DNA from: Hordeum vulgare subsp. vulgare | Taxonomy: Eukaryota; Streptophyta; Magnoliopsida; Poales; Poaceae | NCBI RefSeq assembly: GCF_904849725.1 | Contig: NC_058523.1 | Coordinates: 174,574,689-174,638,688 of the forward strand | Length of the DNA: 64,000 nt | Reading direction: 5' to 3' | Part shown: positions 804 through 62,213 of the stretch, one piece after another | Numbering within the stretch: the first letter of the stretch is position 1 | Layout of the letters: each line of letters begins with the position of its first letter | Made by a program: the position numbers and the translations under genes | The notes under the pieces: generated by a model | What the model was told of the DNA's origin: nothing | Seen by the model: only the letters and a program-made list of their open reading frames with translations | Databases searched by the model: none

Positions 804-1463
804 TGTGACAGCCCGATGCCGACGATCCAGAAGCTTCCCCTTTTCTTTCCATTTTCGTCGTGTGTCTATTTATATTGGTCGCATCATCATCGCATCATGC
901 GCTTCATCAGCATTGCATCGGCATCTCCGTTGCCGCCAGTTTTAAAAACTTGCATCCGTTGTTAGTTGCCGGTTCGCGACGTCGTCCGTTCTGAGTTCAA
1001 CCGCACTCGCACGCGCCCGCGGCACCGTCGAAACCCTGTTTTTAAAGTGGGCGTAAAACTTTCTATGATCGAGGTGAAACTTGGCACGCGGTCGCGATTA
1101 GATTTAGCTAGGCCGCCTGTCGAATTCCGTCGCGATCGGAGTCCGTCTGGTACCCGAACAGTCGACCGTAGAGGCACCGTATTCGGTCTATCGTCGGACG
1201 TTTGACGGTGTTTCAAATCGCGTTGCCGTGCTGCCCGTTTTCCCTCTCATCTCCGCCTAGCCTCTCTACACAATGCACCAACCTGCTCGCAGCCCAGTCC
1301 GAAAACCTCCCGGTACCCGGAACACACGGTCGTAACCGTTAGGTCCTGATCAACCCCGTTTTACCCTAAATCATCATCGGTTTGTCCATTGGATACCCTA
1401 ACCTTTATTTCTCGGCCGTCCGATTGAATCGGAGGGTCCGGATCAGCCCTATCCAAATCCACC

Positions 1464-1475
1464 TATTTATTTAAG
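1464..1475 (+). promoter_or_regulatory. LARD A 5' LTR TATA-like box
   Basis: TATTTATTTAAG lies about 660 bp into the LTR. LARD B has a clear TATATATAG at the equivalent place (38502-38510), and the solo LTR has CTATAAAAA (58422-58430). A GC-rich, CT-rich leader follows directly, as in plant pol II promoters. The same site in the 3' LTR is 9478-9489. Transcript start was not measured. Confidence 0.5.
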
Positions 1476-2295
1476 CAGTCAAATCCTAGTCCTACCCTTG
1501 TCCCATCCACCCATTCCCTCATAGCCGCCACCCGACCAACCTCCTCCTTCCTCGGGATCCCCAAGATCCAGTTCGCGTCCAACCCCTCGCTAGCCGTCGA
1601 GCCAACCTCCTCCCTTGCATCCTGAACGTGTGCGGATGCCCGTAGTTCCCTTCGTCCGCGCGCAGTAGCAGCAGCCAGGAGCGCGAGCTCCTCGTCGGCC
1701 TCGACGAATCTCATCCGCGTCCAAGCCATGTGGGTCAACAACAACAATAGCACCACAAGGTCATGTCCGCGCCCCTGTTTTCCTCCTACCCTCCGTATCC
1801 TCTTCTCAGGTCTCTCTCTCCCTCGTTTCATTTCTCTCTCTGTCTTGCAGCAGCAGCACCTGCAGGAGGTGGAGCTCGCCCATGTCTGCGTCAACCTCAG
1901 GGCCTCTGAAGTCGTCCACACATCGCGGGATCTGGCTATGCCTCGTCCGGATTCGGCGAGTCCAAGGCCTCCGCTTCCCTCTGGGACCTCGCTCCTCTCC
2001 CTCCTGTAAATCGTTCTGTCTCTCTCATGCTTTCTTCTTCGTCTCTCTGCAGGGACTAACCGCTCCCTCACCAGCGCCAGATCCGCTGGGAATGGAGTCC
2101 CTTGCCCTGGATCCGGCCATTCCAGCATGCGCAGCCCCCTCCTCGACGTCGGGCTGGCTTGTGGTCGCTGTTCCCCTGCCATGGCCGCCGGCCTCTTCCC
2201 CTGCTGTGAGATTCCCGTATCTGAACCTTGTGTGTTAGTTTCAGAGCCGTTCGGTGTCGTGTGTTGTTAGGATACTACTGCTTTGTTTCACAAGC

Positions 2296-2375
2296 AGGTT
2301 ACTAGTCTAGCTGGTAGCCGATCCACACCTAAACCAAGCGATCTCGGGTTCGAATCCGAGCCAAGCCTATTTTTT
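2296..2375 (+). ncRNA. tRNA-like module 1 in LARD A 5' LTR (relic, pol III A/B boxes)
   Basis: An A-box match TAGTCTAGCTGG (2303-2314; 11 of 12 to TRGCNNAGYNGG) is followed 44 nt later, start to start, by a perfect B box GGTTCGAATCC (2347-2357). This is the spacing of a real tRNA gene. CCAAGCC follows, then a six-T run (2370-2375) that would stop RNA polymerase III. The 7-bp acceptor stem does not pair convincingly, so it is unlikely to make a charged tRNA. It is better read as a tRNA-derived relic that may still have an internal promoter. The 3' LTR copy is 10311-10390. Confidence 0.6.
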
Positions 2376-2452
2376 GTTTTGTGTTATTTAGATTAGAGCC
2401 TCGCTGTGACGCTGTGATTTATATCAGCTATATATCCACCTTGTCCCAAAGC

Positions 2453-2533
2453 CTCAACACAGCGCAGTGGTTGGACTATTTTTCCCTGGTCCAGGAGGTC
2501 GTGGGATCAAATCCCATGAGTGCCAAAAATTTT
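2453..2533 (+). ncRNA. tRNA-like module 2 in LARD A 5' LTR
   Basis: The A-box match CAGCGCAGTGGT (2460-2471; 10 of 12) and B box GGATCAAATCC (2504-2514) are again 44 nt apart. The T-arm pairs over five positions (GTGGG with CCCAT, one G-T pair) around a seven-base loop. A T4 run at 2530-2533 follows. The acceptor stem is not recognisable. The module lies 157 nt downstream of module 1 in the same orientation. The 3' LTR copy is 10468-10548. A tRNA-derived SINE head is an alternative, but no SINE body or tail follows. Confidence 0.58.
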
Positions 2534-3735
2534 GCTGGCTATGGGTTTATTTTTTTCTGTCTTGCACACAGCTTTCTTGGGCCTATTTCATCCCTGGGCC
2601 ACTGCACTATGGTGCAATTCGGCCCATTATGTTTTTTTTAAAACGTCGTGTGATTTTTCCAATTCTCAGGGATTTTGTGAATTTCAGGAAAAGGCGTTGT
2701 TTTTCAAACGAGCGTAGTTTCTAAACCATGCATCGAATTAAAATGATTTCAACATATAAGTTGCTTAGAATTTTCTGTAGTTTCACAAAAACCAACTCTC
2801 ATGCATAATTAGATCCGTTTAGTGTGCTGTTTGCATTGGTTTGCGTCTCGACATGTTGAAAACGGTTTAGGACGTAACTACTTGTCCGTAGCTCCGTTGG
2901 AGTTGTGCCATATATGTAAATGGACCAGCACGTCGCGTAGCATCACGTGAACCACTTTGTTTTGCTGTTTAACAAACTTAAAATGTGATTAGGACAAATC
3001 TGGACAGAATTAAGTTTTAACACGTGGGGTCATTTCGGAGATGCTATATGTCGTTTCCGACCTCATTTAAAATGCCTAGATAGGTAGTTTAATTTCCGCT
3101 TCACCTCTTGCATGTTTAACAACATTAATATTGCCGTGTAAATAACCGGGATAGAACTAAATAATAAACGTGGAGTTTCGTCAATATGCAACTCGTTGCA
3201 TATTGAACTTCACTTAATGTGTAGTGTTTGATTGTGTGAATTGTCATGCCGTGACTTGCATGTATCCAGCTGCTCATGCATCATTTGTGTTGTGCATCGT
3301 GTGGTGAAATTCGTGTGTTGATTCGTGTTTCCAGTTTGCTTCGTCTCGATAGAGTACCACAAGCGTGTCGGATGTGAGGACCCGTTCGACTACCTCGGCT
3401 CGTCTGCTTCACGGAGGCATACTTCTTCCAAGCGGGATCTCAGGCAAGATGATTATTTCCCCAGATACCATTACTATCATTGCCATGCTAGTTATTTCGA
3501 TGCTATCGCTTATGTCTCGTTGCCTACCACATGTTAAATCTCAGCCTCTCAACAATGCCATGAAACCTTCAACATGTTCAACCTAGCAAACCACTGATTG
3601 GCTATGTTACTGCTTGCTTAACCCTGTTGATAGCGTTGCTAGTTGCAGGTGCAGTTGCTTCCATGTGAAACATGGGTTCCTTGTCATATCACCATATTAA
3701 ATGTTATTTAATTTAACGGACCTATATACTTGGTA

Positions 3736-3783
3736 AAAGGTGGAAGGCTCGGCCTTTCTAGCCTGGTGTTTTGTTCCACCTTT
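3736..3783 (+). other. Conserved 48-nt hairpin, LARD A 5' LTR
   Basis: Ten-base arms AAAGGTGGAA and TTCCACCTTT are perfectly complementary around a loop with its own small inverted pair (AGGCTCGGCCT). The element has the same arms and length in all five LARD LTRs of the window (also 11751, 40905, 48780 and 60995), including the diverged solo LTR. It would be part of the transcript leader (R/U5 side). A role in packaging, dimerisation or 3' processing is a guess. Confidence 0.6.
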
Positions 3784-5119
3784 GCCCCCTTTAGTTACCG
3801 GCTACCGGTGTTATGTTCCATAAATGAGCGCTCCTAACACGATCGGGGTTGTTATGGGGACCCCCTTGATAATTCGTTTTAGATTAAATCTGGACTGGCA
3901 AGGCCCAACTTTGGTACTACATTTGCCTAATAACCTAATAATAATGCATAGGGACCCGCCGGCACCCGCGGACTATTTTAATCAACCCCCGGGCCAGTGC
4001 TCCTCATGAGTGTTGGTCCAAAACAGAGCAGCTTATTAACGCTACCCGGGGCAACTCAGTGTTTGGCGTGGTAACCATAGCTCATCCGTCGTGTCCTGAG
4101 AACGAGGTACGCGACTCCTATCGGGATCATCGACACGTCGGGCGGCCTTGCTGGATTAGTTTTACCTTTGACGAGATATCTTGTGCATCGGGATTCTGGT
4201 GATGCTTTGGGTAATCTCAGAGTTGAGGTTTTCCACTAGGGAATCCGACGAGATCGCGAGCTTCGTCATTGAGGATTTCTATGCGGCTTGTGGTAATTTG
4301 TGATGGACTAGTTGGAGCACCCCTGCAGGGTTAAATCTTTCGGAAAGCCGTGCCCGCGGTTATGTGGCAACGTGGAAACTTTGTTTAACACTGGTTCTAG
4401 ATAACTTGAAGTTAAACATAATTAAAACATGCCCACTGTGTGCGTAACCGTGACTGTCTCTTTCGTGAGTTCTTACTCCGATCGAGGACATGGTGGGGTT
4501 ATGTCTGACGTAGGTAGGTGTTCAGGATCATTCTCTTGATCAAGCGTAGTTCACGTCCGTTATGCGTAGTTCATTCCCCTCTTTATTCTTGTACTCGTAA
4601 GTTTAGCCACCAAATATATGCTTAGCCGCTGCTGCAACCTCACCACTTAACCATACCTCACCCATTAAGCTTTGCTAGTCTTGATACCTTTGGAAATGAG
4701 ATTGCTGAGTCCCCTGTGGCTCACAGATTACTACAACACCAGTTGCAGGTACAGGTAAAGGGTACTTGACGCGAGCGCGTTGATTGTTCATTTGGAGTTG
4801 CTTCTTCTTCTTCTTCTTCATCGGTCTAGGGTGGGTTCCAGGCCGGCAGCCTGGGATAGCAAGGATGGACGTCGTTCTTCTTTTGCCGTTTATTTTCGTC
4901 CGTACTCGGACCCTCCTCTTACTCATGATGAATATGTAATGTACTGAGGTGACTCTAATGTAGCTTGTGGCGAGTGTAAGCCAATTCTATATATCTCTTC
5001 TTTTCAGTACATGTACTTGTAACGATATCCATTCTTGCGACACGACGAGATGCGCTTCTATCCCTGACAAGGCCCTCGTGCCAAATTGAGGATAGGGTCG
5101 CATCTTGGGCGTGACAAGT

Positions 5120-5132
5120 TGGTATCAGAGCC
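5120..5132 (+). promoter_or_regulatory. LARD A primer binding site (tRNA-iMet type)
   Basis: TGGTATCAGAGCC begins three bases (AGT) after the 5' LTR end. It matches the plant retrotransposon PBS complementary to the 3' end of initiator tRNA-Met. An intact PBS means the RNA could still prime reverse transcription if enzymes are supplied by another element. Confidence 0.9.
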
Positions 5133-8817: not shown

Positions 8818-10310
8818 TGTGACAGCCCGATGCCGATGATCCAGAAGCTTCCCCTTTTCTTTCCATTTTCGTCGTGTGTCTATTTATATTGGTCGCATCA
8901 TCATCGCATCATGCGCTTCATCAGCATTGCATCGGCATCTCCGTTGCCGCCAGTTTTCAAAACTTGCATCCGTTGTTAGTTGCCGGTTCGCGACGTCGTC
9001 CGTTCTGAGTTCGACCGCACTCGCACGCGCCCGCGGCACCGTCGAAACCCTGTTTTTAAAGTGGGCGTAAAACTTTCTATGATCGAGGTGAAACTTGGCA
9101 CGCGGTCGCGATTAGATTTGGCTAGGCCGCCTGTCGAATTCCGTCACGATCGGAGTCCGTCTGGTACCCGAACAGTCGACCGTAGAGGCACCGTATTCGG
9201 TCTATCGTCGGACGTTTGACGGTGTTTCAAATCGCGTTGCCGTGCTGCCCGTTTTCCCTCTCATCTCCGCCTAGCCTCTCTACACAATGCACCAACCTGC
9301 TCGCAGCCCAGTCCGAAAACCTCCCGGTACCCGGAACACACGGTCGTAACCGTTAGGTCCTGATCAACCCCGTTTTACCCTAAATCATCATCGGTTTGTC
9401 CATTGGATACCCTAACCTTTATTTCTCGGCCGTCCGATTGAATCGGAGGGTCCGGATCAGCCCTATCCAAATCCACCTATTTATTTAAGCAGTCAAATCC
9501 TAGTCCTACCCCTGTCCCATCCACCCATTCCCTCGTAGCCGCCACCCGACCAACCTCCTCCTTCCTCGGGATCCCCAAGATCCAGTTCGCGTCCAACCCC
9601 TCGCTAGCCGTCGAGCCAACCTCCTCCCTTGCATCCTGAACGTGTGCGGATGCCCGTAGTTCCCTTCGTCCGCGCGCAGTAGCAGCAGCCAGGAGCGCGA
9701 GCTCCTCGTCGGCCTCGACGAATCTCATCCGCGTCCAAGCCATGTGGGTCAACAACAACAGTAGCACCACGAGGTCATGTCCGCGCCCCTGTTTTCCTCC
9801 TACCCTCCGTATCCTCTTCTCAGGTCTCTCTCTCCCTCGTTTCATTTCTCTCTCTGTCTTGCAGCAGCAGCACCTGCAGGAGGTGGAGCTCGCCAATGTC
9901 TGCGTCAACCTCAGGGCCTCTGAAGTCGTCCACACATCGCGGGATCTGGCTATGCCTCGTCCGGATCCGGCGAGTCCAAGGCCTCCGCTTCCCTCTGGGA
10001 CCTCGCTCCTCTCCCTCCTGTAAATCGTTCTGTCTCTCTCATGCTTTCTTCTTCGTCTCTCTGCAGGGACTAACCGCTCCCTCACCAGCGCCAGATCCGC
10101 TGGGAATGGAGTCCCTTGCCCTGGATCCGGCCATTCCAGCCTGCGCAGCCCCCTCCTCGACGTCGGGCTGGCTTGTGGTCGATGTTCCCCTGCCATGGCC
10201 GCCGGCCTCTTCCCCTGCTGTGAGATTCCCGTATCTGAACCTTGTGTGTTAGTTTTCAGAGCCGTTCGGTGTCGTGTGTTGTTAGGATACTACTGCTTTG
10301 TTTCACAAGC

Positions 10311-10390
10311 AGGTTACTAGTCTAGCTGGTAGCCGATCCACACCTAAACCAAGCGATCTCGGGTTCGAATCCGAGCCAAGCCTATTTTTT
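10311..10390 (+). ncRNA. tRNA-like module 1 in LARD A 3' LTR
   Basis: A box TAGTCTAGCTGG at 10318-10329, B box GGTTCGAATCC at 10362-10372 (44 nt apart) and T6 at 10385-10390. No change from the 5' LTR copy was noticed in either box or in the T-run. Confidence 0.6.
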
Positions 10391-10467
10391 GTTTTGTGTT
10401 ATTTAGATTAGAGCCTCGCTGTGACGTTGTGATTTATATCAGCTATATATCCACCTTGTCCCAAAGC

Positions 10468-10548
10468 CTCAACACAGCGCAGTGGTTGGACTATTTTTCC
10501 CTGGTCCAGGAGGTCGAGGGATCAAATCCCATGAGTGCCAAAAATTTT
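10468..10548 (+). ncRNA. tRNA-like module 2 in LARD A 3' LTR
   Basis: A box CAGCGCAGTGGT at 10475-10486, B box GGATCAAATCC at 10519-10529 (44 nt apart) and T4 at 10545-10548. One change from the 5' copy (GTCGTGGG to GTCGAGGG) breaks the second T-stem pair, so this copy is slightly more decayed. Confidence 0.57.
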
Positions 10549-11750
10549 GCTGGCTGTGGGTTTATTTTTTTCTGTCTTGCACACAACTTTCTTGGGCCTA
10601 TTTCATCCCTGGGCCACTGGACTATGGTGCAATTCGGCCCATTATGTTTTTTTTAAAACGTCGTGTGATTTTTCCAATTCTCAGGGATTTTGTCAATTTC
10701 AGGAAAAGGCGTTGTTTTTCAAACGAGCGTAGTTTCTAAACCGTGCATCGAATTAAAATGATTTCAACATATAAGTTGCTTAGAATTTTCTGTAGTTTCA
10801 CAAAAACCAACTCTCATGCATAATTAGATCCGTTTAGTGTGCTGTTTGCATTGGTTTGCGTCTCGACGTGTTGAAAACGGTTTAGGACGTAACTACTTGT
10901 TCGTAGCTCCGTTGGTGTTGTGCCATATATGTAAATGGACCAGCACGTCGCGTAGCATCACGTGAACCACTTTGTTTTGCTGTTTAACAAACTTAAAATG
11001 TGATTAGGACAAATCTGGACAGAATTAAGTTTTAACACGTGGGGTCATTTCGGAGATGCTATATGTCGTTTCCGACCTAATTTAAAATGCCTAGATAGGT
11101 AGTTTAATTTCCGCTTCACCTCTTGCATGTTTAACAACATTAATATTGCCGTGTAAATAACCGGGATAGAACTAAATAATAAACGTGGAGTTTCGTCAAT
11201 ATGCAACTCGTTGCATATTGAACTTCACTTAATGTGTAGTGTTTGATTGTGTGAATTGTCATGCCGTGACTTGCATGTATCCAGCTGCTCATGCATCATT
11301 TGTGTTTTGCATCGTGTGGTGAAATTCGTGTGTTGATTCGTGTTTCCGGTTTGCTTCGTCTCGATAGAGTACCACAAGCGTGTCGGATGTGAGGACTCGT
11401 TCGACTACCTCGGCTCGTCTGCTTCACGGAGGCATACTTCTTCCAAGCGGGATCTCAGGCAAGATGATTATTTCCCCAGATACCATTACTATCATTGCCA
11501 TGCTAGTTATTTCGATGCTATCGCTTATGTCTCGTTGCCTACCACATGTTAAATCTCAGCCTCTCAACAATGCCATGAAACCTTCAACATGTTCAACCTA
11601 GCAAACCACTGATTGGCTATGTTACTGCTTGCTTAACCCTGTTGATAGCGTTGCTAGTTGCAGGTGCAGTTGCTTCCATGTGAAACATGGGTTCCTTGTC
11701 ATATCACCATATTAAATGTTATTTAATTTAACGGACCTATATACTTGGTA

Positions 11751-11798
11751 AAAGGTGGAAGGCTCGGCCTTTCTAGCCTGGTGTTTTGTTCCACCTTT
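11751..11798 (+). other. Conserved 48-nt hairpin, LARD A 3' LTR
   Basis: Arms AAAGGTGGAA (11751-11760) and TTCCACCTTT (11789-11798) are perfectly complementary, with the same loop as at 3736-3783. Confidence 0.6.
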
Positions 11799-13132
11799 GC
11801 CCCCTTTAGTTACCGGCTACCGGTGTTATGTTCCATAAATGAGCGCTCCTAACACGATCGGGGTTGTTATGGGGACCCCCTTGATAATTCGTTTTAGATT
11901 AAATCTGGTCCGGCAAGGCCCAACTTTGGTACTACATTTGCCTAATAACCTAATAATAATGCATAGGGACCCGTCGGCACCCGCGGACTATTTTAATCAA
12001 CCCCCGGGCCAGTGCTCCTCATGAGTGTTGGTCCAAAACAGAGCAGCTTATTAACGCTACCCGGGGCAACTCGGCGTTTGGCGTGGTAACCATAGCTCAT
12101 CCGTCGTGTCCTGAGAACGAGGTACGCGACTCCTATCGGGATCGTCGACACGTCGGGCGGCCTTGCTGGATTAGTTTTACCTTTGACGAGATATCTTGTG
12201 CATCGGGATTCCGGTGATGCTTTGGGTAATCTCAGAGTTGAGGTTTTCCACTAGGGAATCCGACGAGATCGCCAGCTTCGTGATTGAGGATTTCTATGCG
12301 GCTTGTGGTAATTTGTGATGGACTAGTTGGAGCACCCCTGCAGGGTTAAATCTTTCGGAAAGCCGTGCCCGCGGTTATGTGGCAACGTGGAAACTTTGTT
12401 TAACACTGGTTCTAGATAACTTGAAGTTAAACTTAATTAAAACATGCCCACTGTGTGCGTAACCGTGACTGTCTCTTTCGTGAGTTCTTACTCCGATCGA
12501 GGACACGGTGGGGTTATGTCTGACGTAGGTAGGTGTTCAGGATCATTCTCTTGATCAAGCGTAGTTCACGTCCGTTATGCGTAGTTCATTCCCCTCTTTA
12601 TTCTTGTACTCGTAAGTTTAGCCACCAAATATATGCTTAGCCGCTGCTGCAACCTCACCACTTAACCATACCTCACCCATTAAGCTTTGCTAGTCTTGAT
12701 ACCTTTGGAAATGAGATTGTTGAGTCCCCTGTGGCTCACAGATTACTACAACACCAGTTGCAGGTACAGGTAAAGGGTACTTGACGCGAGCGCGTTGATT
12801 TTTCATTTGGAGTTGCTTCTTCTTCTTCTTCTTCATCGGTCTAGGGTGGGTTCCAGGCCGGCAGCCTGGGATAGCAAGGATGGACGTCGTTCTTCTTTTG
12901 CCGTTTATTTTCGTCCGTAGTCGGACCCTGCTCTTACTCATGATGAATATGTAATGTACTGAGGTGACTCTAATGTAGTTTGTGGTGAGTGTAAGCCAAT
13001 TCTATATATCTCTTCTTTTCAGTACATGTACTTGTAACGATATCCATTCTTGCGACACGACGAGATGCGCTTCTATCCCTGACGAGGCCCTCGTGCCAAA
13101 TTGAGGATAGGGTCGCATCTTGGGCGTGACAA

Positions 13133-37834: not shown

Positions 37835-38501
37835 TGTGACAGCCCGATGCCGATGTTCCAGAAGATTCCCCTCTCTTTCTGTTTTCGTCGCGTGTCTATT
37901 TTTATTTGTCGCATCATCATCGCATCATGCGCATCATCAGCATTGCGTCGGCGTCCTGTTGCCGCCAGTTTTTGAAAACCTTGCATTCGTTAGTAGTTGC
38001 CGGTTCTCGTCGTTGTCCGTTCTGAGTCCGACCGCACATGCACGCGCCCACGGCATCGTCGAAACCTTGTTTTAAAGTGTACGTAAAACTTTCTCCGATT
38101 GAGCTGGAACTTGGCGTGCGGTATTAATTTAGTGTAGGTAGGCCGTCCGTCAAATATCATCGCGATCGGAGCTCGTCTGTTACCCGTGTCGTTTATTATA
38201 TAGCGGCACTATAGCCGGTCAATTGTCGGACGTTTCGGTATTTTAAACTCTGTCACCGGGTTGCCCGTTTTCCCCCTCTTCTCTGCCTAGCCCCTCTGCA
38301 CAGTGCATCGACCCTACGCGCAGCCCAGTCCGGGAACCTCACGGAACCCGAACCCGGCGGTCATGTCCATTGGATCTGGATCAACCCCGTTTTACCGCAA
38401 GCAGTCATCAGCTTGTCCATTGGCCTCTCTAATCTAGTTATTTTTTTTCGACCGTCCGATCCGAATTGGAGGGTTCAAATAACCCCTAATCTAACCTACC
38501 T

Positions 38502-38510
38502 TATATATAG
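38502..38510 (+). promoter_or_regulatory. LARD B 5' LTR TATA box
   Basis: TATATATAG about 670 bp into the LTR, directly before a CT-rich leader. The same box is at 46375-46383 in the 3' LTR. Confidence 0.72.
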
Positions 38511-39461
38511 TCCACCTAATCTAACCTAGCCCTAGCTGTCCCATCCATCAATTCCCTCTCCGCCGCCACCCACTGAAAATTTCCCCTTGGCATCCATCCC
38601 CATCCAACCACATTGTTGAGACCACCTTCCTTGTTTTCCGCCGTCGTCCAACCTGCAACATCCTCCCTCTTCCCCGAGTGGACCCGTCCGCCTCCCTTGG
38701 ATCCGTGCGCCAGCGCACCTCGTCTCCAAGCAGCAGGCAAGAGCTGGCCTCCAGCAGCACTCATGGCACCCGTGATTCAACTAGCTCCACCCGTGCGCCT
38801 CCGTGCTCGACCCTGGCCCCCAGCAAGCGGCGCCGTCCACCTCTCCTCTCGAGCCCGAGCCAAGCCGACCCCGCCGTCGTTCCAGCAAGTTGCCGGCAGC
38901 CACAGCTCCGCAGGCCGGACCAGGGTCCCTCCCTTCTCCTTCTTCCTGCTCTCTTCCATCTATTCCTGACTCTCTCTCTGTCTCATCTCTCTCTCGTTTC
39001 TTTCAGCAGGCCTCCATGGTCGCCTCCCCAAGAAGCTCCCCGTCGGCCGGCCTCGCGGTGCCAGACGCCGCATCCACCGGGAATGGAACCGCGACACCAA
39101 GGTCATCTAGATACGACTAGAGCTCGCCTTCCTGCCCATCCGTGACGCGTGTCATCCTCCATGGTCTTCTCCTCTGCTCCTGTTCGTCAGAAAACGAGCA
39201 GAGCCAGGACGTCGTTGCTTCGAGCGAGCGTGGTGCTCGCATGCCCAGGCAGGTGCCCCGCCCCCTCGTGCGCTTCTCCCTCCTCTCTTCTCGGCCTCCT
39301 CTCCCCCCTGACTTCTCTCTCTTGCAGGAGTCCATGCCCTCCATGGACAGGAGCTGCGTTCCCCACCTGGCAACAGAGATATCTCTGTTTCACATTTCAG
39401 TTTCGTCAGGTTCGGCTCAGATATGGTTCATCTTGCGGAAACCCCTTTTTGCATCACTGAT

Positions 39462-39537
39462 TCGCTTGTATCCCAGTGTCAGCGCGCTTGGTAGCAAACC
39501 TGAGGTCCAGGGATCAAATCCCGCCGGCGCCTCCTTT
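39462..39537 (+). ncRNA. tRNA-like module 1 in LARD B 5' LTR
   Basis: The A-box region TATCCCAGTGTC starts at 39469 and has lost one base compared with the 3' LTR copy. B box GGATCAAATCC is at 39511-39521, 42 nt away, and a T4 run is at 39534-39537. The stretch between the boxes ends TGAGGTCCAG, much like a tRNA variable loop. Acceptor pairing is not convincing. Confidence 0.57.
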
Positions 39538-39616
39538 TGTTTATTTCATTTTTTTCCTGTTGCACCAGCAGTAGATTTAGTTTAGCTATGCTAAGTCCTC
39601 ATCTATGGTCAGTTGT

Positions 39617-39694
39617 GCTGCAGTAGCATAGTGGTGTGGAGTTGTGCTTATGGTACCCTAGGTTCAGGGTTCGAATCCCCTTGCACCCCATTTT
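39617..39694 (+). ncRNA. tRNA-like module 2 in LARD B 5' LTR
   Basis: A box TAGCATAGTGGT (39624-39635; 11 of 12) and perfect B box GGTTCGAATCC (39668-39678) are 44 nt apart. A T4 run (39691-39694) and then a T8 run follow. GTGC before the A box could pair with GCAC after the T-arm, a trace of an acceptor stem. Of all modules this has the best combined boxes and terminator. Confidence 0.62.
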
Positions 39695-40904
39695 ATTTTT
39701 TTTAGGTGTGTGGTGAAGTAGTTGGGGTGTGTGTATTGTGGGGGTATGGCCCACTTGCATACACCCATTAGGGGCCCTGGTGAGTATGACCAGTGGGACC
39801 CCCTGATGTTTATATGTATTTTTTGTTGTTGTTGCTTTGTTTTGGTTAGGTTTGTGATGTATTTCCAAATCTGGAATATTCTGTAAGAGGAATATGCCAA
39901 ATCTGGCATATCAAGAACAACCCCTGTTCTTGTTATTAGCGGAGTTTGATCTTGTGTAGTTTTTCCTTTGCTGTTTCTGGTGTTTTCTGCATGCATATAT
40001 AGCAGTGTAATATATGAATTTGGGGTAGAAGAACCCAATGAATCCAATGGTGGCACTGGATTCCAGTTGTGAGCAGTTTTGCAGAAGTGGCACTTTGTGA
40101 TGAGGTGGCACTATTTGACCTCGTAGGTTGGTGTAAGTGCGTAGTTAGGGATTGAGCATACATGCATCATTTTAGTTAGTGCTTCCTGTTGTGCATGTCT
40201 CTTGATTGTAGCTCCGTTCTATGTTCCACGTGTGAACCGGCTAAGATGACATGTAGAATCACCGCTTCACCCCTTGCCATGTTAACAACATTTAATATTG
40301 CCGTGTAACTAATCGGGATAGAACTAAATGATTAATGTGGAGTTTCGTCAATATGCAACTCCTTGCATATTGAACTTCACTTAATGTGTAGTGTTTGATT
40401 GTGTGATTTGTCATGCCGTGACTTGCATGTATTCAACTGTTCATGCATCATTTGTGTTGTGCATCGTGTGGTGAATTCTGTGTGATGATTTGTGTTTCCG
40501 GTTTCCTTCGTCTCGATAGAGCTCCGCTTGCGTGCCGGATTGTGAGGACCCGTTCGACTACGTCAGTTCGTCTGATTCACGGAGGCATTCTTCTTCCAAG
40601 CGGGATCTCAGGCAAGATGATCATTTCCCCAGATACCATTACTATCATTGCCATGCTAGTTTTACCGTTGCTATCGTTTACGTCTCGTTGCCTACCACCT
40701 GTTAAATATCAGCCTCTCTACAATGCCATGAAGCCATCAACCTGTCCGATCTAGCAAACCACTGATTGGCTAAGTTACTGCTTGCTTAACCCTGTTGATA
40801 GCGTTCCTAGTTGCAGGTGCATTTGCTTCCATGTGACAACATGGGTTCCTTGTTATATCACCATATTTAAATGATATTTAATTTAATGCACCTATACACT
40901 TGTT

Positions 40905-40952
40905 AAAGGTGGAAGGCTCGGCCTTTCTAGCCTGGTGTTTTGTTCCACCTTT
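40905..40952 (+). other. Conserved 48-nt hairpin, LARD B 5' LTR
   Basis: Arms AAAGGTGGAA and TTCCACCTTT, with the same loop as in LARD A. Confidence 0.6.
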
Positions 40953-42283
40953 GCCCCCTTAGTTTCGGCTACCGGTGTTATGTTCCATAAATGAGCGCTC
41001 CTAACACGATCGGGGTTGTTATGGGGACCCCCTTGATAATTCGTTTTAGATTAAAGCTGGTCTGGCAAGGCCCAACATTGGTACTACATTTGCCTAAACA
41101 CCTAATAAAATTGCATAGGGACTTTCCGGACCCCGAGGATAATTTAATCAACCCCCGGGCCAGTACTCCTCATGAGTGTTGGTCCCACCTGAGCGTTGTC
41201 CGGCGCCCCTCTGGTCACCCGGAGGTTTAGCGATCCCGACGTCTAGCTCATCCGCCGTGTCCTGAGAATGAGGTACGCGACTCCTATCAGGATCGTCGAC
41301 ACGTCGGGCAGCCTTGCTGGATTAGTTTTACCTTTGACGAGATATCTTGTGCATCGGGATTTCGATGATGCTTTGGGTAATCTCAGAGTTGAGGTTTTCC
41401 ACTAGGGAATCCGACGAGATCGCGAGCTTCGTGATCGAGGATTTCTATGCGGCTTGTGGTAATTTGTGATGGACTAGTTGGAGCACCCCTGCAGGGTTAA
41501 ATCTTTTCGGAAAGCCGTGCCCGCGGTTATGTGGCAACGTGGAAACTTTGTTTAACACTGGTTCTAGATAACTTGAAGTTAATCAATTAAAATATGCCAA
41601 CTGTGTGCATAACCGTGACTGTCTCTTTCGAGAGTTCCTTCTCCGATCGAGGACACGGTGGGGTTATGTCTGACGTAGGTAGGTGTTCAGGATCATTCAT
41701 TTGATCATCAGTAGACACGTCCGTTATGCGTAGATCTTCCCCCTCTTATTTCTTGTACTCGTAAGTTTAGCCACCAAATATATGCTTAGCCGCTGCTGCA
41801 ACCTCACCACTTAACCATACCTCACCCACTTAGCTTTGCTAGTCTTGATACCTTTGGAAATGAAATTGCTGAGTCCCCTGTGGCTCACAGATTGCTAGAA
41901 CACCAGTTGCAGGTACATGTAAAGGTTACTTGACGCGAGCGCGTTGATTGTTCATTTGGAGTTGCTTCTTCTTCTTCTTCATCGATCTAGGATGGGCTCC
42001 AGGCCGGCAGCCTGGGATAGCAAGGATGGACGTCGTTTCATTTTCTCGTTTGTTTTCGTCCGTAGTCGGACCCTGCTCTTACTCTTGATGATTATGTAAT
42101 GTACCGATGTGACTCTGATGTAGCTTGTGGCGAGTGTAAGCCAACTCTGTATATATATCTCTTCTTTTCAGTACATGTACTTGTAACGATATCCATTCTT
42201 GCGACACGACGAGATGCGCTTCTATCCCTGACGAGGCCTTCGTGCCAAATTGAGGATAGGGTCGCATCTTGGGCATGACAAGT

Positions 42284-42295
42284 TGGTATCAGAGC
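42284..42295 (+). promoter_or_regulatory. LARD B primer binding site (tRNA-iMet type)
   Basis: TGGTATCAGAGC begins three bases (AGT) after the LTR end, with the same spacing as LARD A. Intact. Confidence 0.9.
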
Positions 42296-45707: not shown

Positions 45708-47334
45708 TGTGGCAGCCCGATGCCGATGTTCCAGAAGATTCCCCTCTCTTTCCGTTTTCGTCGCGTGTCTATTTTTATTTGTCGCATCATCATCGCATCA
45801 TGCGCATCATCAGCATTGCATCGGCGTCCTGTTGCCGCCAGTTTTTGAAAACCTTGCATTCGTTAGTAGTTGCCGGTTCTCGTCGTTGTCCGTTCTGAGT
45901 CCGACCGCACACGCACGCGCCCGCGGCATCGTCGAAACCTTGTTTTAAAGTGTACGTAAAACTTTCTCCGATTGAGCTGGAACTTGGCGTGCGGTATTAA
46001 TTTAGTGTAGGTAGGCCGTCCGTCAAATATCATCGCGATCGGAGCTCGTTTGTTACCCGTGTCGTTTATTATATAGCGGCACTATAGCCGGTCAATTGTC
46101 GGACGTTTCGGTATTTTAAACTCTGTCACCGGGTTGCCCGTTTTCCACCTCTTCTATGCCTAGCCCCTCTGCACAGTGCATCGACCCTACGCGCAGCCCA
46201 GTCCGGGAACCTCCCGGAACCCGAACCCGGCGGTCATGTCCATTGGATCTGGATCAACCCCGTTTTACCGCAAGCAGTCATCAGCTTGTCCATTGGCCTC
46301 TCTAATCTAGTTATTTTTTTTCGACCGTCCGATCCGAATCGGAGGGTTCAAATAACCCCTAATCTAACCTACCTTATATATAGTCCACCTAATCTAACCT
46401 AGCCCTAGCTGTCCCATCCATCAATTCCCTCTCCGCCGCCACCCACTGAAAATTTCCCCTTGGCATCCATCCCCATCCAACCACATTGCTAAGACCACCT
46501 TCCTTGTTTTCCGCCGCCGTCCAACCTGCAACATCCTCCCTCTTGCCCGAGTGGACCCGTCCGCCTCCCTTGGATCCGTGCGCCGGCGCACCTCGTCTCC
46601 AAGCAGCAGGCAAGAGCTGGACTCCAGCAGCACTCATGGCACCCGTGATTCAACTAGCTCCACCCGTGCGCCTCCGTGCTCGACCCTGGCCCCCAGCAAG
46701 CGGCGCCATCCACCTCTCCTCGCGAGCCCGAGCCAAGCCGACCCCGCCGTTGTTCCAGCAAGTTGCCGGCAGCCAGAGCTCCGCAGGCCGGACCAGGGTC
46801 CCTCCCTTCTCCTTCTTCCTGCTCTCTTCCATCTATTCCTGACTCTCTCTCTGTCTCATCTCTCTCTCGTTTCTTTCAGCAGGCCTCCATGGTCGCCTCC
46901 CCAAGAAGCGCCCCGTCGGCCGGCCTCGCGGTGCCAGACGCCGCCTCCACCGGGAATGGAACCGCGACACCAAGGTCGTCTAGATCCGACTAGAGCTCGC
47001 CTTCCTGCCCATCCGTGACGCGCGTCATCCTCCGTGGTGTTCTCCTCTGCTCCTGTTCGTCAGAAAACGAGCAGAGCCAGGACGTCGTTGCTTCGAGCGA
47101 GCGTGGTGCTCGCATGCCCAGGCAGGTGCCCCGCCCCCTCGTGCGCTTCTCCCTCCTCTCTTCTCGGCCTCCTCTCCCCCCTGACTTCTCTCTCTTGCAG
47201 GAGTCCATGCCCTCCATGGACAGGAGCTGCGTTCCCCACCTGGCAACAGAGATATCTCTGTTTCACATTTCAGTTTCGTCAGGTTCGGCTCAGATATGGT
47301 TCATCTTGCGGAAACCCCCTTTTGCATCACTGAT

Positions 47335-47412
47335 TCGCTTGTATCCCAGTGGTCAGCGCGCTTGGTAGCAAACCTGAGGTCCAGGGATCAAATCCCGTCG
47401 GCGCCTCCTTTT
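47335..47412 (+). ncRNA. tRNA-like module 1 in LARD B 3' LTR
   Basis: A box TATCCCAGTGGT (47342-47353; 10 of 12) and B box GGATCAAATCC (47385-47395) are 43 nt apart, followed by T4 at 47409-47412. The order CAGTGGTCAGCGCGC resembles a tRNA D-arm. This copy is better preserved than that in the 5' LTR. Confidence 0.6.
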
Positions 47413-47491
47413 GTTTATTTCGTTTTTTTTTATGTTGCACTAGCAGTAGAGTTAGTTTAGCTATGCTAAGTCCTCATCTATGGTCAGTTGT

Positions 47492-47569
47492 GCTGCAGTA
47501 GCATAGTGGTGTGGAGTTGTGCTTATGGTACCCTAGGTTCAGGGTTCGAATCCCCTTGCACCCCATTTT
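47492..47569 (+). ncRNA. tRNA-like module 2 in LARD B 3' LTR
   Basis: A box TAGCATAGTGGT (47499-47510) and B box GGTTCGAATCC (47543-47553) are 44 nt apart, with T4 at 47566-47569 and a longer T-run after it. No difference from the 5' LTR copy was seen in either box. Confidence 0.62.
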
Positions 47570-48779
47570 ATTTTTTTTAGGTGTATGGTGAAGTAGTTGG
47601 GGTGTGTGTATTGTGGGGGTATGGTCCACTTGCATACACCCATTAGGGGCCCTGGTGAGTATGACCAGTGGGACCCCCTGATGTTTATATGTTTTTTTGT
47701 TGTTGTTGCTTTGTTTTGGTTAGGTTTGTGATGTATTTCCAAATCTGGAATATTCTGTAAGAGGAATATGCCAAATCTGGCATATCAAGAACAACCCATA
47801 TTCTTGTTATTAGCGGAGTTTGATCTTGTGTAGTTTTTCCTTTGCTGTTTCTGGTGTTTTCTGCATGCATATATAGCAGTGTAATATATGAATTTGGGGT
47901 AGAAGAACCCAATGAATCCAATGGTGGCACTGGATTCCAGTTGTGAGCAGTTTTGCAGAAGTGGCACTTTGTGATGAGGTGGCACTTGTTGACCTCGTAG
48001 GTTGGTGTAAGTGCATAGTTAGGGATTGAGCATACATGCATCATTTTAGTTAGTGCTTCCTGTTGTGCATGTCTCTTGATTGTAGCTCCGTTCTATGTTC
48101 CACGTGTTAACCGGCTAAGATGACATGTAGAATCACCGCTTCACCCCTTGCCATGTTAACAACATTTAATATTGCCGTGTAACTAATCGGGATAGAACTA
48201 AATGATTAATGTGGAGTTTCGTCAATATGCAACTCGTTGCATATTGAACTTCACTTAATGTGTAGTGTTTGATTGTGTGATTTGTCATGCCGTGACTTGC
48301 ATGTATTCAGCTGTTCATGCATCATTTGTGTTGTGCATCGTGTGGTGAATTCCGTGTGATGATTTGTGTTTCCAGTTTGCTTCGTCTCGATAGAGCTCCG
48401 CAGGCGTGCCGGATTGTGAGGACCCGTTCGACTACGTCGGTTCGTCTGCTTCACGGAGGCATTCTTCTTCCAAGCGGGATCTCAGGCAAGATGATCATTT
48501 CCCCAGATACCATTACTATCATTGCCATGCTAGTTTTACCGTTGCTATCGTTTACGTCTCGTTGCCTACCACATGTTAAATATCAGCCTCTCTACAATGC
48601 CATGAAACCATCAACCTGTCCGATCTAGCAAACCACTGATTGGCTAAGTTACTGCTTGCTTAACCCTGTTGATAGCGTTGCTAGTTGCAGGTGCAGTTGC
48701 TTCCATGTGACAACATGGGTTCCTTGTTATATCACCATATTTAAATGCTATTTCATTTAATGCACCTATACACTTGGTA

Positions 48780-48827
48780 AAAGGTGGAAGGCTCGGCCTT
48801 TCTAGCCTGGTGTTTTGTTCCACCTTT
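48780..48827 (+). other. Conserved 48-nt hairpin, LARD B 3' LTR
   Basis: Same perfectly paired ten-base arms and the same loop as the other four copies. Confidence 0.6.
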
Positions 48828-50158
48828 GCCCCCTTAGTTTCGGCTACCAGTGTTATGTTCCATAAATGAGCGCTCCTAACACGATCGGGGTTGTTATGGG
48901 GACCCCCTTGATAATTCGTTTTAGATTAAAGCTGGTCTGGCAAGGCCCAACATTGGTACTACATTTGCCTAAACACCTAATAAAATTGCATAGGGACTTT
49001 CCGGACCCCGAGGATAATTTAATCAACCCCCGGGCCAGTGCTCCTCATGAGTGTTGGTCCCACCTGAGCGATGTCCGGCGCCCCTCTGGTCACCCGGAGG
49101 TTTAGCGATCCCGACGTCTAGCTCATCCGCCGTGTCCTGAGAACGAGGTACGCGACTCCTATCGGGATCGTCGACACGTCGGGCGGCCTTGCTGGATTAG
49201 TTTTACCTTTGACGAGATATCTTGTGCATCGGGATTCCGGTGATGCTTTGGGTAATCTTAGAGTTGAGGTTTTTCACTAGGGAATCCGACGAGATCGCGA
49301 GCTTCGTGATCGAGGATTTCTATGCGGCTTGTGGTAATTTGTGATGGACTAGTTGGAGCACCCCTGCAGGGTTAAATCTTTTCGGAAAGCCGTGCCCGCG
49401 GTTATGTGGCAACGTGGAAACTTTGTTTAACACTGGTTCTAGATAACTTGAAGTTAATCAATTAAAATATGCCAACTGTGTGCGTAACCGTGACTGTCTC
49501 TTTCGTGAGTTCCTTCTCCGATCGAGGACACGGTGGGGTTATGTCTGACGTAGGTAGGTGTTCAGGATCATTCATTTGATCATCAGTAGACACGTCCGTT
49601 ATGCGTAGATCTTCCCCCTCTTATTTCTTGTACTCGTAAGTTTAGCCACCAAATATATGCTTAGCCGCTGCTGCAACCTCACCACTTAACCATACCTCAC
49701 CCACTTAGCTTTGCTAGTCTTGATACCTTTGGAAATGAAATTGCTGAGTTCCTTGTGGCTCACAGATTGCTACAACACCAGTTGCAGGTACATGTAAAGG
49801 TTACTTGACGCGAACGCGTTGATTGTTCATTTGGAGTTGCTTCTTCTTCTTCTTCTTCATCGATCTAGGATGGGCTCCAGGCCGGCAGCCTGGGATAGCA
49901 AGGATGGACGTCGTTTCATTTTCTTGTTTGTTTTCGTCCGTAGTCGGACCCTGCTCTTACTCTTGATGATTATGTAATGTACCGATGTGACTCTGATGTA
50001 GCTTGTGGCGAGTGTAAGCCAACTCTGTATATATATCTCTTCTTTTCAGTACATGTACTTGTAACGATATACATTCTTGCGACACGACGAGATGCGCTTC
50101 TATCCCTGACGAGGCCTTCGTGCCAAATTGAGGATAGGGTCGCATCTTGGGCGTGACA

Positions 50159-57856: not shown

Positions 57857-59499
57857 TGTAACACATCGACGCTTCAGAAGATTCCTTTTTTATTCCCTTA
57901 CCGCCATGTGTTTTATTTGTTTGTTGCATTCATCATGTCATCATGCCATCCCGTATTAATGTTTTTGCAACTCAAATACATAAATGGTATGGATCCTTGA
58001 TCCATTTAAATCAAGGAAATTCACATGGTGATTTATCTATATAACATATCCTCTCAATATTATTAGGGGGCTATAATGAAATATTCTAATCATAACACAC
58101 TTGCAATTTAACTCCATTCTTTTCTATCTTAATTCTTGCCTTCAACTTTGCCCATAATTCTTTTGCTTTATGTCCATCCACCCTCTCAAAATTCTCCCCA
58201 TCCGTAGTTCATTTAAAAGGGAGTTTGAATTCAAACATAACGAATCTAATTCATTATGTTTGGTATTTTTTTACTTCCTTCATAAATGTTCATCTTATTC
58301 CCATAAATCATATTTATTATGTAGGGTGACCTCCAAAATTTCATTCCATTTGGCATTGGTTTGGTTAGGTTTTAAATTCAGGCAAGCGTGAGTTAAATTC
58401 AAACTTGTTTAAATTTGTTTCCTATAAAAATCCCCAAACCGATTGTATAAAATAGAGTACATTTTTATGGTTCCAGAAAAATAATTCTCCAACTCTATTT
58501 CTCTCTCTACCTCTATTTTTCTTATTCTCTAAATCTGTTTATTTCATTAATGGCTAAGGAAAGAATATGAGACAGATCAGGCCCAACTCTTACCTGTTTG
58601 ATCTTAGCCCATCAAGCCCACCACTCCTTCTTCTTCCTACGTCACCTGCTATACTAACCAGGGGATCACCATTGATCTCCTAGAGCTCGATCAGACGGCC
58701 CTCCCTTCCTCCTCTAGTCATATTAGAGCAACCCACGGGCCTAGGGTTCCTTCCTCCTTCCAGTTTCCCCTTCTCTTCCCCCTGCCGCCGCCAAGAGAGG
58801 CCTCCTCCACGCCTCGCCATGGTCTTGAGCCAAGTTGGAGCTCGCGCTCGGTTTGATCTGAGCCACCGTCTCCTTCCTCGGGGGCATCAAGATCTTCACC
58901 GTCGTCTTCCTCACCCCCGCACCCGACCACAAGGACTTCTCTGCTTCCCCTACTTCGTCTTCGTCACGCCCTCGAACACCTCCTCCTCGCCTCCTCGTCG
59001 CGTCCCCGGCCTCCTCGTCTAGTCCCACGGGACCATGGTGAGCCCCTTCTCCTCCCCATCTTCGTTTCCCCTGTGTTCTTGTCATGGTAGCACCGTTCAG
59101 GACCGCCCCGAGCTCATCCGCCATGGATGTCCTCGAGTTCGAGCACGCGCACCCGCACATCTTGCTGCCGCCCCTGCTACACCCTTTCACACTCACGCAC
59201 ACCATCACGCATGCGTCGTAGCACCGCAGTTCGCGTCCCAAGGTCCGAGTCATAGGCACCGAGGTGAGCACGAGCTCGTCCCCGAGCTCCCGCCGCCTTG
59301 CAAGCGCATGCCCGCGGCAGCAGCCAGTCGCTTCGCGCGCACGCGCCCTATTTTCCGCACGCCCGCTGACGCCTAGCAGCAGCGATCGTCGTTGCATTTG
59401 CTCGCCGTGGCGTAAGCTTCCCCGGCGCATCAATGGCTGAAGCTCGTTTTTTGTGTGTGTTTCGGTTATCATGGTAGGGAGCTTAACCCGTGCACGAGA

Positions 59500-59576
59500 A
59501 TTTTGCCAGTCGAGCTGGCCATCACTGCGCAGAATTATCCCAGCACTGGGGTTCGAATCCGACGCGTCCCTTTTTT
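59500..59576 (+). ncRNA. tRNA-like module 1 in the solo LARD LTR
   Basis: The A-box match CAGTCGAGCTGG (59507-59518; 10 of 12) and perfect B box GGTTCGAATCC (59550-59560) are 43 nt apart, and T6 (59571-59576) follows. The A box resembles that of LARD A module 1 (TAGTCTAGCTGG), and the module sits at the same LTR depth (about 1.65 kb). Acceptor pairing is absent. Confidence 0.6.
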
Positions 59577-59705
59577 ATGTTGCTGTGGTTTTCCATTTTG
59601 CTCTGCACTCCACCGCGAGCACAGCCAGCCTAGCTTTGTCTTTCGCAGGTTCGTTTGTTAGAGTTTCTGGTACAGTTAAGTTAGCTCTGCTAATTTGACA
59701 GGAAC

Positions 59706-59746
59706 ACGCCGCAAGCCTAGTGGTAGGCACTCCACGCATTTTTTTT
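59706..59746 (+). ncRNA. Truncated tRNA-like module 2 in the solo LARD LTR
   Basis: AAGCCTAGTGGT (59713-59724) resembles an A box (10 of 12). The B box is missing; the sequence goes almost directly to a T8 run (59739-59746). Position and order match the second module of LARD A and B, so I read it as a deleted version. Weak on its own. Confidence 0.35.
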
Positions 59747-60994
59747 GTTTTGTTTAGATTCTTTTTAGCATTTGGAGACAAGTTAGATATGTATGTTGAT
59801 CAGTTTTACGTCTACTTTCAGGTTACGTAATATGTTGGTCAGTTTTACGTCTACTTTCAGGTTATGTAAATTTTTGGCCATGTTAGAAACCTTTAACCAG
59901 CTGTTGTTATGTTGCATTATAGACAACATGATTAAATTAATGGCAGAATTAACATGGAACTTTGCATGATCTTAATTTGAGGTTTACAAAAACACTTTGG
60001 CATGATCTTGGTGTGTATTCTCATCAAAATTTAGTGTACTTTACAATGGGAGGTTTTGTTCTCAGCTTTGAGCAAGCCAACCTCATGTTTGTCTCAGATT
60101 TGTGCACAAACCGTTTTCTCTTGCATGTATCACAACTTTCGCATCGTAGCTCTAAATATTATAAATTTCATATGTATTTGGCACCGCTCTTTCTATTCCA
60201 TCCGGTGGCATACTTGGGTTGTCGAGATTTTGCCCATGTCCTATTCTCCTTCCTGGTTACCATGTTTTCCCTCCCGTAATCACTTTGTTTGCTCCGGTAG
60301 AACCGTAACTTCGATCATACCATTCTTTATATGCATTTATTGTAAATTGAGTGTAGAACATGAACATTGCCATGTCATGCATTGTATCATCACCATGATC
60401 ATGTTCTGACCAGATTATATAATTCACCTAACTGCACACGAATATCACTTGATCCACTCCACTAGTGGAACCAAGGCTTCCTTTAAACTTGTTGTATTTT
60501 GTTGCCATGTTACAACATTTAAAAATGACATGCATGCATTTGATTGAAGCATCTATGCCTTGTCTCGTTTGTTTATCGTGTTGTTTGTTGTTTTCATATC
60601 TTTTTCTCCTCTCTAGAGTTTCGAAAGCATTTCAGAGTGTGAGGATTCGTTCGACTATGTTGGTTCGTTCGACTATGTTCTTCTTCTAAGCGGGATCACA
60701 CGCAAGATGACCATTTCACAAGATACCATTAGTATCATTGTCATGCTAGTTGTCTCGTTTCTTTCGTTATGTCTCGCTGCCTACCACCTGTTAAATGGCA
60801 GCCTCTCAACATTGCCATGAAAACCTTCAACCTTTCTACAACCTAGCAAACCATTGGTTGGCTATGTTACCGCTTGCTTAAACATAGGATAGCATTGCTA
60901 GTTGCAGGTACAGTTGCTTCGATGTGATAACATGGGTTCTTTGTTATATCATCATATTAATGCTATTTAAATTAATGCACTTATATACTTGGTA

Positions 60995-61042
60995 AAAGGT
61001 GGAAGGCTCGGCCTTTCTAGCCTGGTGTTTTGTTCCACCTTT
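60995..61042 (+). other. Conserved 48-nt hairpin, solo LARD LTR
   Basis: Arms AAAGGTGGAA and TTCCACCTTT and an unchanged loop, although flanking sequence differs from LARD A and B. Confidence 0.6.
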
Positions 61043-62213
61043 GTTGCCTTAGTTTCGGCTACCGATGTTATATTCCATAACTGAGCGCTCCTACCACAAT
61101 CGGGGTTGTTATGGAGACCCCCTTGATAATTCGTCTAAGATCAAAACTAGCTTGGCAAGGCCTAACTTTGGTATTACATTTGCCTAATAACTAATAAAAA
61201 GCATAGGGACCCGTCGGCACCCGCGGATAATTAATCAACCCCCCGACTAGTGCTCCTCATGAGTGTTGGTCCAAACTAGAGTCGTGTGCGGGGCTAACCC
61301 AGGGCAACTTGGGAGATCTCTATCAGGCCACTGTACGCTGTGCTCATCTGATTGTGCCCTGAGAACGAGATACGCGTTTCCTATTGGGATCGTCGGTACG
61401 TCGGGTGGCCTTGCTCGGCTTGTTTTACCTTTTACGAAATATCTTGTGCATCGGGATTCCGGTGATACTTTGGGTTATCTGAGAGTTGAGGTTTTTCACT
61501 AAGGAATCAGAGTAGATCACGGGTTTCGTGGTCGAGGCTTTCTATGCGGCTTGTGGTAATTTGTGATGGACTAGTCGGAGCACCCTTGCAGGCTTAAATC
61601 TTTAGGAAAGTTGTGCCCGCGGTTATGTGGCAACTTGGAAACTTTGTTTAACATTCGGTTTCAGATAACTTGAATTAAGCTTAATTGAAATGTGACAACT
61701 GTGTGTGTAACCGTGAATGTCTCTTTCGTGAGCTCCTTCTCCGATTGGGGACACGGTGGGGTTATGTCTGACGTAAGTAGGTGTTCAGAATCATTAATTT
61801 GATCACCATTAGTTCATGCCCGATTATGCGTAGACCATCCCCCTCTTATTCTTGTGCGCGTAAGTTAGTCACTCAAATAAATGCTTAGTCACTTGTTGCA
61901 GTCTCACCACTAAACCATATCTCACCTATTAAGCTTTGCTAGTCTTGATACATTTGGAAATGAGATTGCCGAGTCCCCTATGGCTCACATTTTACTACAA
62001 CATTAGTCTTCTACATGATGACTGTATATTGTTGTATTGACGTAGTCTTGATGTAGTTTGTGGCGAGTGTAAGCCAACTCCTTATACTCATATTTTCAGT
62101 ACACGTACTTTTAACGATATACATGCTTTTGAAATGATGAGATGTGTTTCTATCCCTATCGAGGCCCTTGCGCCAAAATAAGGATATGATCGCGTCTTGG
62201 GCGTTACAACCCA

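Follow-up and report, generated by a model that had tools for sequence, protein, structure and literature searches.

Pol III promoters in LTRs are known already. Cassandra, a non-coding plant TRIM of less than 1 kb, carries a 5S-type Pol III promoter in its LTRs and, as presented in those parts of PMC7215508 and PMC10886601 that deal with it, has its element RNA made by Pol III from LTR to LTR. Helenus (TRIMp3), with a length of 311-1263 bp and one tRNA-like sequence, has a single plant family, from Selaginella, in the relevant section of Kojima 2024 (PMC10886601). In both Cassandra and Helenus, Pol III presumably synthesizes the element RNA, which limits the size of the element. In foamy viruses, the LTR combines its Pol II promoter with several short A/B-box Pol III units, as outlined in a part of PMC8674446. 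Kojima (PMC10886601) also points out that a fair number of LTRs look like a portion of a tRNA, and individual cases of the kind described below may therefore have been noticed earlier. As for tandem terminated units in LARDs, no earlier report was found, and among the matches listed from the open-licence PMC literature none describes Pol III units in the LTRs of LARDs.

The window (the whole 64-kb stretch of barley DNA that was analysed) contains three elements with LARD-type LTRs, here called A, B and C (Table 1). Elements A and B have LTRs of 4.3-4.5 kb, an internal part of 3.4-3.7 kb in which no ORF of at least 120 aa was found, and a whole length of 12.3 kb; the long LTRs, non-coding interior, PBS and 5-bp TSDs (with one extra base in A) are those of LARDs. 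Element C is a solo LTR, because ACCCA is present on both flanks and a second LTR is absent from the window. The interior of element A contains a direct repeat of ~285 nt (89%, 5886-6171 and 6165-6445, self-BLAST). Directly downstream of element C lies a 206-aa ORF (62375-62995), which we take to resemble the end of an integrase, element C apparently sitting inside a gypsy-type pol gene.

Table 1. LTRs, primer binding sites and box A/box B modules of elements A, B and C in the window
Feature	Position	Strand	Details
Element A 5' LTR, LARD type	804..5116	+	self-BLAST; 98.9% identical to 3' LTR; TSD GTTCG 799-803
Element A 5' LTR, module 1	2303..2375	+	box A TAGTCTAGCTGG 2303; box B GGTTCGAATCC 2347; T6 2370-2375
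Element A 5' LTR, module 2	2460..2533	+	box A CAGCGCAGTGGT 2460; box B GGATCAAATCC 2504; T4 2530-2533
Element A primer binding site	5120..5131	+	TGGTATCAGAGC
Element A 3' LTR	8818..13131	+	self-BLAST; GTTCG again at 13133-13137, one extra A before
Element A 3' LTR, module 1	10318..10390	+	box A 10318; box B 10362; T-run 10385
Element A 3' LTR, module 2	10475..10548	+	box A 10475; box B 10519; T-run 10545
Element B 5' LTR	37835..42280	+	self-BLAST; TSD CCTGG 37830-37834
Element B 5' LTR, module 1	39469..39538	+	box A one base short, A-B 42 nt; box B GGATCAAATCC 39511; T4
Element B 5' LTR, module 2	39624..39694	+	TAGCATAGTGGT, then GGTTCGAATCC 39668; TTTT and further T
Element B primer binding site	42284..42295	+	TGGTATCAGAGC
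Element B 3' LTR	45708..50158	+	self-BLAST; TSD CCTGG 50159-50163
Element B 3' LTR, module 1	47342..47412	+	box A TATCCCAGTGGT; box B 47385; T4
Element B 3' LTR, module 2	47499..47569	+	box B 47543
Element C, lone LTR	57857..62208	+	ACCCA both sides (57852-57856, 62209-62213)
Element C, module 1	59507..59576	+	CAGTCGAGCTGG 59507; GGTTCGAATCC 59550; T6
Element C, module 2, broken	59715..59747	+	box A-like AAGCCTAGTGG, then T8; without box B

The initial annotation had described two tandem modules in each LTR of element A, each with 44 nt from box A to box B and a T-run behind the pair, and this description holds: both modules are present in both LTRs where it had placed them, the start-to-start distance is 44 nt in 4/4 modules, and a T-run follows all four. 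The second box A of element A departs from the consensus by 1-2 mismatches, all mismatch counts being relative to box A and box B consensus strings that are short and degenerate. Together, box A, box B at tRNA spacing and T-run make up the anatomy of a type-2 Pol III gene. When the window was scanned for box A (at most 2 mismatches) with a strict box B at 43-45 nt and a T4, 8 full units were found on the + strand and 0 on the - strand, compared with an average of 0.015 and never more than 1 for the same scan of both strands in 600 dinucleotide shuffles; the 8 units cannot be counted as independent, given that the 5' and 3' LTRs of an element are copies of one another. All 8 fall in the three LARD-type LTR families A, B and C; the original listing, confined to element A, is correct for the A units but incomplete, as B and C units also occur in the window.

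Like Cassandra, elements A and B are non-coding LTR elements whose LTRs contain a putative Pol III promoter and a terminator, and their PBS TGGTATCAGAGC is also the one quoted for Cassandra; the parallel to Cassandra drawn earlier is borne out, in that some LARD LTRs have Pol III-type units of their own. Unlike Cassandra, which by the parts of the sources concerned with it has a single 5S-type promoter, these 12-kb elements have tandem arrays of two or three tRNA-type promoters, every one of them with a terminator of its own. With Helenus, as characterized in that section of PMC10886601, they share a PBS and tRNA-derived boxes A and B in both LTRs (of A and of B), with tRNA function not kept; by contrast, the TRIM size of Helenus/TRIMp3 (below ~1.3 kb) is far from that of A and B, with their 12.3 kb, LTRs of 4.3-4.5 kb and 2-3 terminated units. 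The scheme described for Cassandra and Helenus is inapplicable here, because terminated units cannot give genomic RNA. Foamy viruses, in the account given in part of PMC8674446, make hairpin microRNAs from U3, whereas here conservation extends neither to the product sequence nor to its fold, and the presumed Pol II start is upstream of the units. With LARDs such as Sukkula the elements share long LTRs, a non-coding internal domain, a PBS and thousands of LTR candidates in this genome; in this comparison by description, the part of PMC7215508 devoted to LARDs mentions no Pol III units in their LTRs.

The position of the modules within the LTRs is conserved where the surrounding sequence is not. 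The LTRs of A and B are 77% identical over the first 730 nt and ~92% identical from 3096 onward (self-BLAST), and their middles (1.5-1.7 kb) give no match in ordinary BLAST. The modules of both elements sit in this unalignable middle, ~1.5-1.8 kb from the LTR start; a TATA-like sequence precedes them in both elements, at 661-670 nt from the same point. Successive box B sequences are 157 nt apart in the 5' LTRs of A and B and 158 nt apart in the 3' LTR of B, and they lie 749/751 nt and 592/594 nt (A/B) upstream of the shared 3' block. In sensitive comparisons of the middles, module A-1 is the top match between A and C (102 nt, 65%, E 3e-5), the leading matches between A and B include A-2 with B-1, alongside CT-rich stretches, and no module is among the top matches between B and C, which have little in common beyond box B. 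Element C relatives have ~40 nt extra at the module 2 site, with a box B there in most of the C-like relatives fetched.

Tandem modules of this kind could be taken for SINE insertions. A tRNA-derived SINE has a tRNA-type head with boxes A and B, whereas here no body was seen around the modules (TSDs around them being sought by eye), the T-run comes directly after the tRNA-like part, and placement in the LTRs is conserved. Scattered late SINE insertion was rejected, because the modules occupy the same LTR place in A, B, C and their relatives while the surroundings barely align; the prospect raised beforehand, that the modules are unrelated late SINE insertions at different sites, was not realized. 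An ancestral SINE or tRNA is a possible ultimate source of the modules. As a separate observation on LTR structure, LARD LTRs look like mosaics, with common 5' and 3' parts and a type-specific middle of 1-2 kb (1533-3096 and 38571-40262 in the window, and loci L103-L114). Between the presumed TATA and the modules (1780-2230 and 38900-39340), GC-rich stretches are parted by CT-rich tracts ending in GCAG, a layout that by eye resembles the exon-intron boundaries of a captured gene leader.

Related loci were collected from the barley genome of the window (4.21 Gb) with the modules of A, B and C as queries, which gave 181, 165 and 74 first-look candidates, respectively; 40 of each were scored, and 32, 20 and 20 loci were fetched, in a few cases both LTRs of a single element. 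The 120 main match positions include 27 same-strand pairs 6.1-9.9 kb apart, as would be expected for LTR pairs of such elements. Under a filter that accepted a strict box B, or a one-mismatch box B with a box A within 3 mismatches, 67/72 fetched loci have two or three modules, a count that gives no frequency, because the loci were picked by likeness to the modules. The exceptions have none (L052), one (L056, L060, L067) or one plus a weak one (L068), and seven C-like loci have three (L055, L061, L062, L063, L065, L066, L069). Longer stretches taken at 13 loci contain three modules in five cases (L115-L119, the same places as five of the seven three-module C-like loci); there are two modules in each of L120-L122, and a single clear one in each of L123-L127. 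The claim of two tandem units is therefore right for element A and too narrow elsewhere, where the number is two or three.

The frequency of modules was estimated from samples blind to them, with three LTR pieces from A, C and B downstream of the modules as queries. The A, C and B pieces gave 3971, 9408 and 3311 first-look candidates (overlapping sets), of which the best 40 each were used, and 20 LTR segments per piece were fetched from the 38, 39 and 38 best-scored matches outside the window; since only the best-scored 40 entered, these samples are biased towards LTRs that resemble A, C and B most closely. One module or more is present in 1/20, 3/20 and 8/20 segments for the A, C and B piece (12/60 in total), and at least two in 1, 3 and 7 of the 20 each. 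Antisense controls gave 0/60 and block-shuffled controls 5/1200; box pairs in other family members are far above background, and not at its level as had been allowed for in advance. Eight segments (L128, L129, L133, L144, L160-L163) gave no alignment to the reference LTRs over the fetched stretch and were kept in the denominator; they may be truncated or of other LTR types. The commonest LTR type sampled (L103-like) has similar ends, a different middle and no modules, and in the ~3.7 kb upstream stretches of this type a strict box B is absent in 11/12, the remaining one (L109) having two modules. Further module families, in L148/L150/L153, L151, L154 and L156, lie in sequence unlike any reference at the modules, with the exception of the first module of L154. 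The modules mark some LARD lineages, not LARDs in general, and are dispensable for LARD spread, because 48/60 module-blind segments lack them. The suggestion in the initial annotation that LARDs carry their own Pol III units stands for these lineages, where the units are putative, and does not extend to LARDs at large.

For the comparison across lineages, 135 sequences were pooled, comprising the 72 module-chosen loci, 3 sequences from the window and the 60 module-blind segments. With strict box B and T-run as the criterion there are 138 sense instances in 79 sequences and 0 antisense instances, the one antisense match found in the longer stretches (L121) being outside the 135. Flank clustering was ungapped with a measured null, and gave 13 clusters at threshold 0.55, 17 at 0.62, and 26 at 0.56 for the larger set, the upstream flanks of the 138 instances; deeper relationships may link clusters that the threshold keeps apart. 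Box A, which was unused for this selection, has at most one mismatch in 22/26 clusters, compared with 3.5% of random positions, and box A-box B spacing is 43-45 nt in 24/26. With the boxes only as the criterion, 120 modules lie in 22 mutually unalignable flank clusters of the same 135 sequences, and the T-run, here unused for selection, begins 10-17 nt past box B in 119/120 modules, compared with 16% of random positions; it lies 8-20 nt after box B in 21/22 clusters and ranges from T4 to T9. The median distance between consecutive modules is 157 nt. Across clusters, conservation is highest in box B, on which the instances had been selected, and the columns between the boxes and in the flanks are mostly uninformative, bar a few positions directly before box B. 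Upstream CAA (0.32, background 0.19) and TATA-like sequences (0.41, background 0.30) are in slight excess only across the 22 clusters. The sense bias may be plain common descent. Chance matching, in favour of which one may cite the shortness and degeneracy of the consensus strings, has a negligible probability, being refuted by the shuffle, random-position and antisense controls.

Within subfamilies the picture is less sharp. In a per-column test of the A-like subfamily, box B2 ranks among the best 1% of windows, box B1 among the best 10% and box A1 at the average. Most B-like and C-like boxes are average; C-like box B2 scores lower than that, in part through variation at consensus-free positions. 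The test gives little support for stronger constraint on the boxes, and is a weak one because copies decay after insertion. This weak conservation within subfamilies, the visibly mosaic LTRs and the fact that most sampled LARD LTR segments manage without modules all favour the idea of functionless passengers, that is, of captured tRNA genes or SINE heads that were duplicated and swapped between LARDs by template switching, with boxes persisting by descent. Neutral descent, however, would blur the boxes like the spacer. Across clusters the spacer carries next to no information, yet in 22-26 clusters with unalignable flanks the two boxes and the T-run have retained both their consensus and their distances, so that passengers of this kind are an unlikely explanation.

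The fold of the RNA that the modules might yield seems not to be kept. Pairing of the acceptor and outer T-stem is no better than with 5' and 3' halves swapped among clusters, ARAGORN (bacterial setting) predicts 0 tRNA in the window and in 75 loci (60 + 15), and Rfam gives no match to the tRNA family in the window and the loci submitted. Functional tRNA genes were rejected as candidates, there being no cloverleaf (0 ARAGORN genes, pairing at null), and the tRNA-like RNA proposed in the initial annotation is unsupported as a fold on all three counts. Folding energies compared with shuffles give z -2.7 for A-1 and z -2.4 for A-2, and are ordinary for four other modules (B, C). Among Rfam matches far below the cut-offs, the middle modules of L061 and L069 show weak mascRNA/menRNA matches (E 0.42 and 0.64), and the first module of L138 a weak tmRNA match (E 0.2).

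These observations bear on the view that a tRNA-like fold in the Pol II RNA of the element serves processing, packaging or priming. The exclusive sense orientation, the stable folds of A-1 and A-2, and the weak mascRNA-like matches in two C-like relatives and tmRNA match in L138 are in line with it, but acceptor and T-stem pairing equals the null, the other four modules fold like shuffles and no tRNA is predicted, making it highly improbable. Because pairing is at null and ARAGORN finds none, the boxes and terminator seem to be kept as DNA features and not as an RNA fold. A DNA role might be filled by TFIIIC alone, at insulator or tether sites like extra-TFIIIC sites without Pol III transcription. 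With box B the most conserved part (though selected on) and an RNA product that is not conserved, such sites would be conceivable; a box-B-only site, however, would need neither box A nor terminator, and both box A at tRNA spacing and a nearby terminator are also kept. We regard TFIIIC-only sites as distinctly unlikely.

We consider it probable that some LARD lineages carry in mid-LTR a sense array of two or three putative type-2 Pol III units, an old component kept for recruitment. On sequence evidence, the tandem terminated boxes suggest that a second RNA polymerase is recruited at the LTRs of these lineages. The array would be an ancient part of the LTR that was passed on by descent and reshuffled by recombination, and what maintains it may be the recruitment of TFIIIC, TFIIIB and Pol III, not the transcript. 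Assuming a start ~12 nt before box A, each unit would give an RNA of ~80-86 nt. In A and B the presumed Pol II start would be ~0.8-1.1 kb upstream of the modules, placing them in the transcribed part of the LTR, and since each unit has its own terminator, the ~8-kb genomic RNA is beyond these units and has to be made by Pol II. Because promoter and terminator are kept and product sequence and fold are not, we favour the act of recruiting Pol III as the function. The likeliest benefit would be local, in the form of a factor-occupied, open or insulated patch in otherwise silenced LTR chromatin. Counting against this explanation are the inconsistent conservation of the boxes within subfamilies, the lack of modules in most sampled LARD segments, module 2 of element C, which lacks box B, and one element B copy with a damaged box A.

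A more tentative proposal, about which we are rather doubtful, is that of an exchangeable Pol III cassette in which only boxes and terminators are selected, so that recruitment or termination, and not the RNA, would help the element. Such a cassette could act as a Pol III helper promoter beside the Pol II promoter, uncoupled from genomic RNA synthesis, and might for instance hold the LTR open or insulated within heterochromatin.

Terminated Pol III-type units in a 12-kb element break the link between Pol III and element size described for Cassandra and Helenus, and raise the question of the role of Pol III in such elements. With thousands of LARD LTR candidates, the modules could constitute a large unannotated set of Pol III/TFIIIC sites in repeat-rich DNA. 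The same LTR ends occur in LARDs that have modules and in LARDs that lack them, providing a natural comparison.

Searches with a LARD 21-mer gave 0 matches in IMG/VR contigs and 2 in GTDB contigs, both in marine Pelagibacteraceae, which were taken as chance. The window contains further repeat pairs, namely 13744-14500/28585-29327, 1-649/51212-51861, 51862-52677/63072-63892, and 15985-16967 inverted with 22081-23075, which are probably LTRs or parts of other elements.
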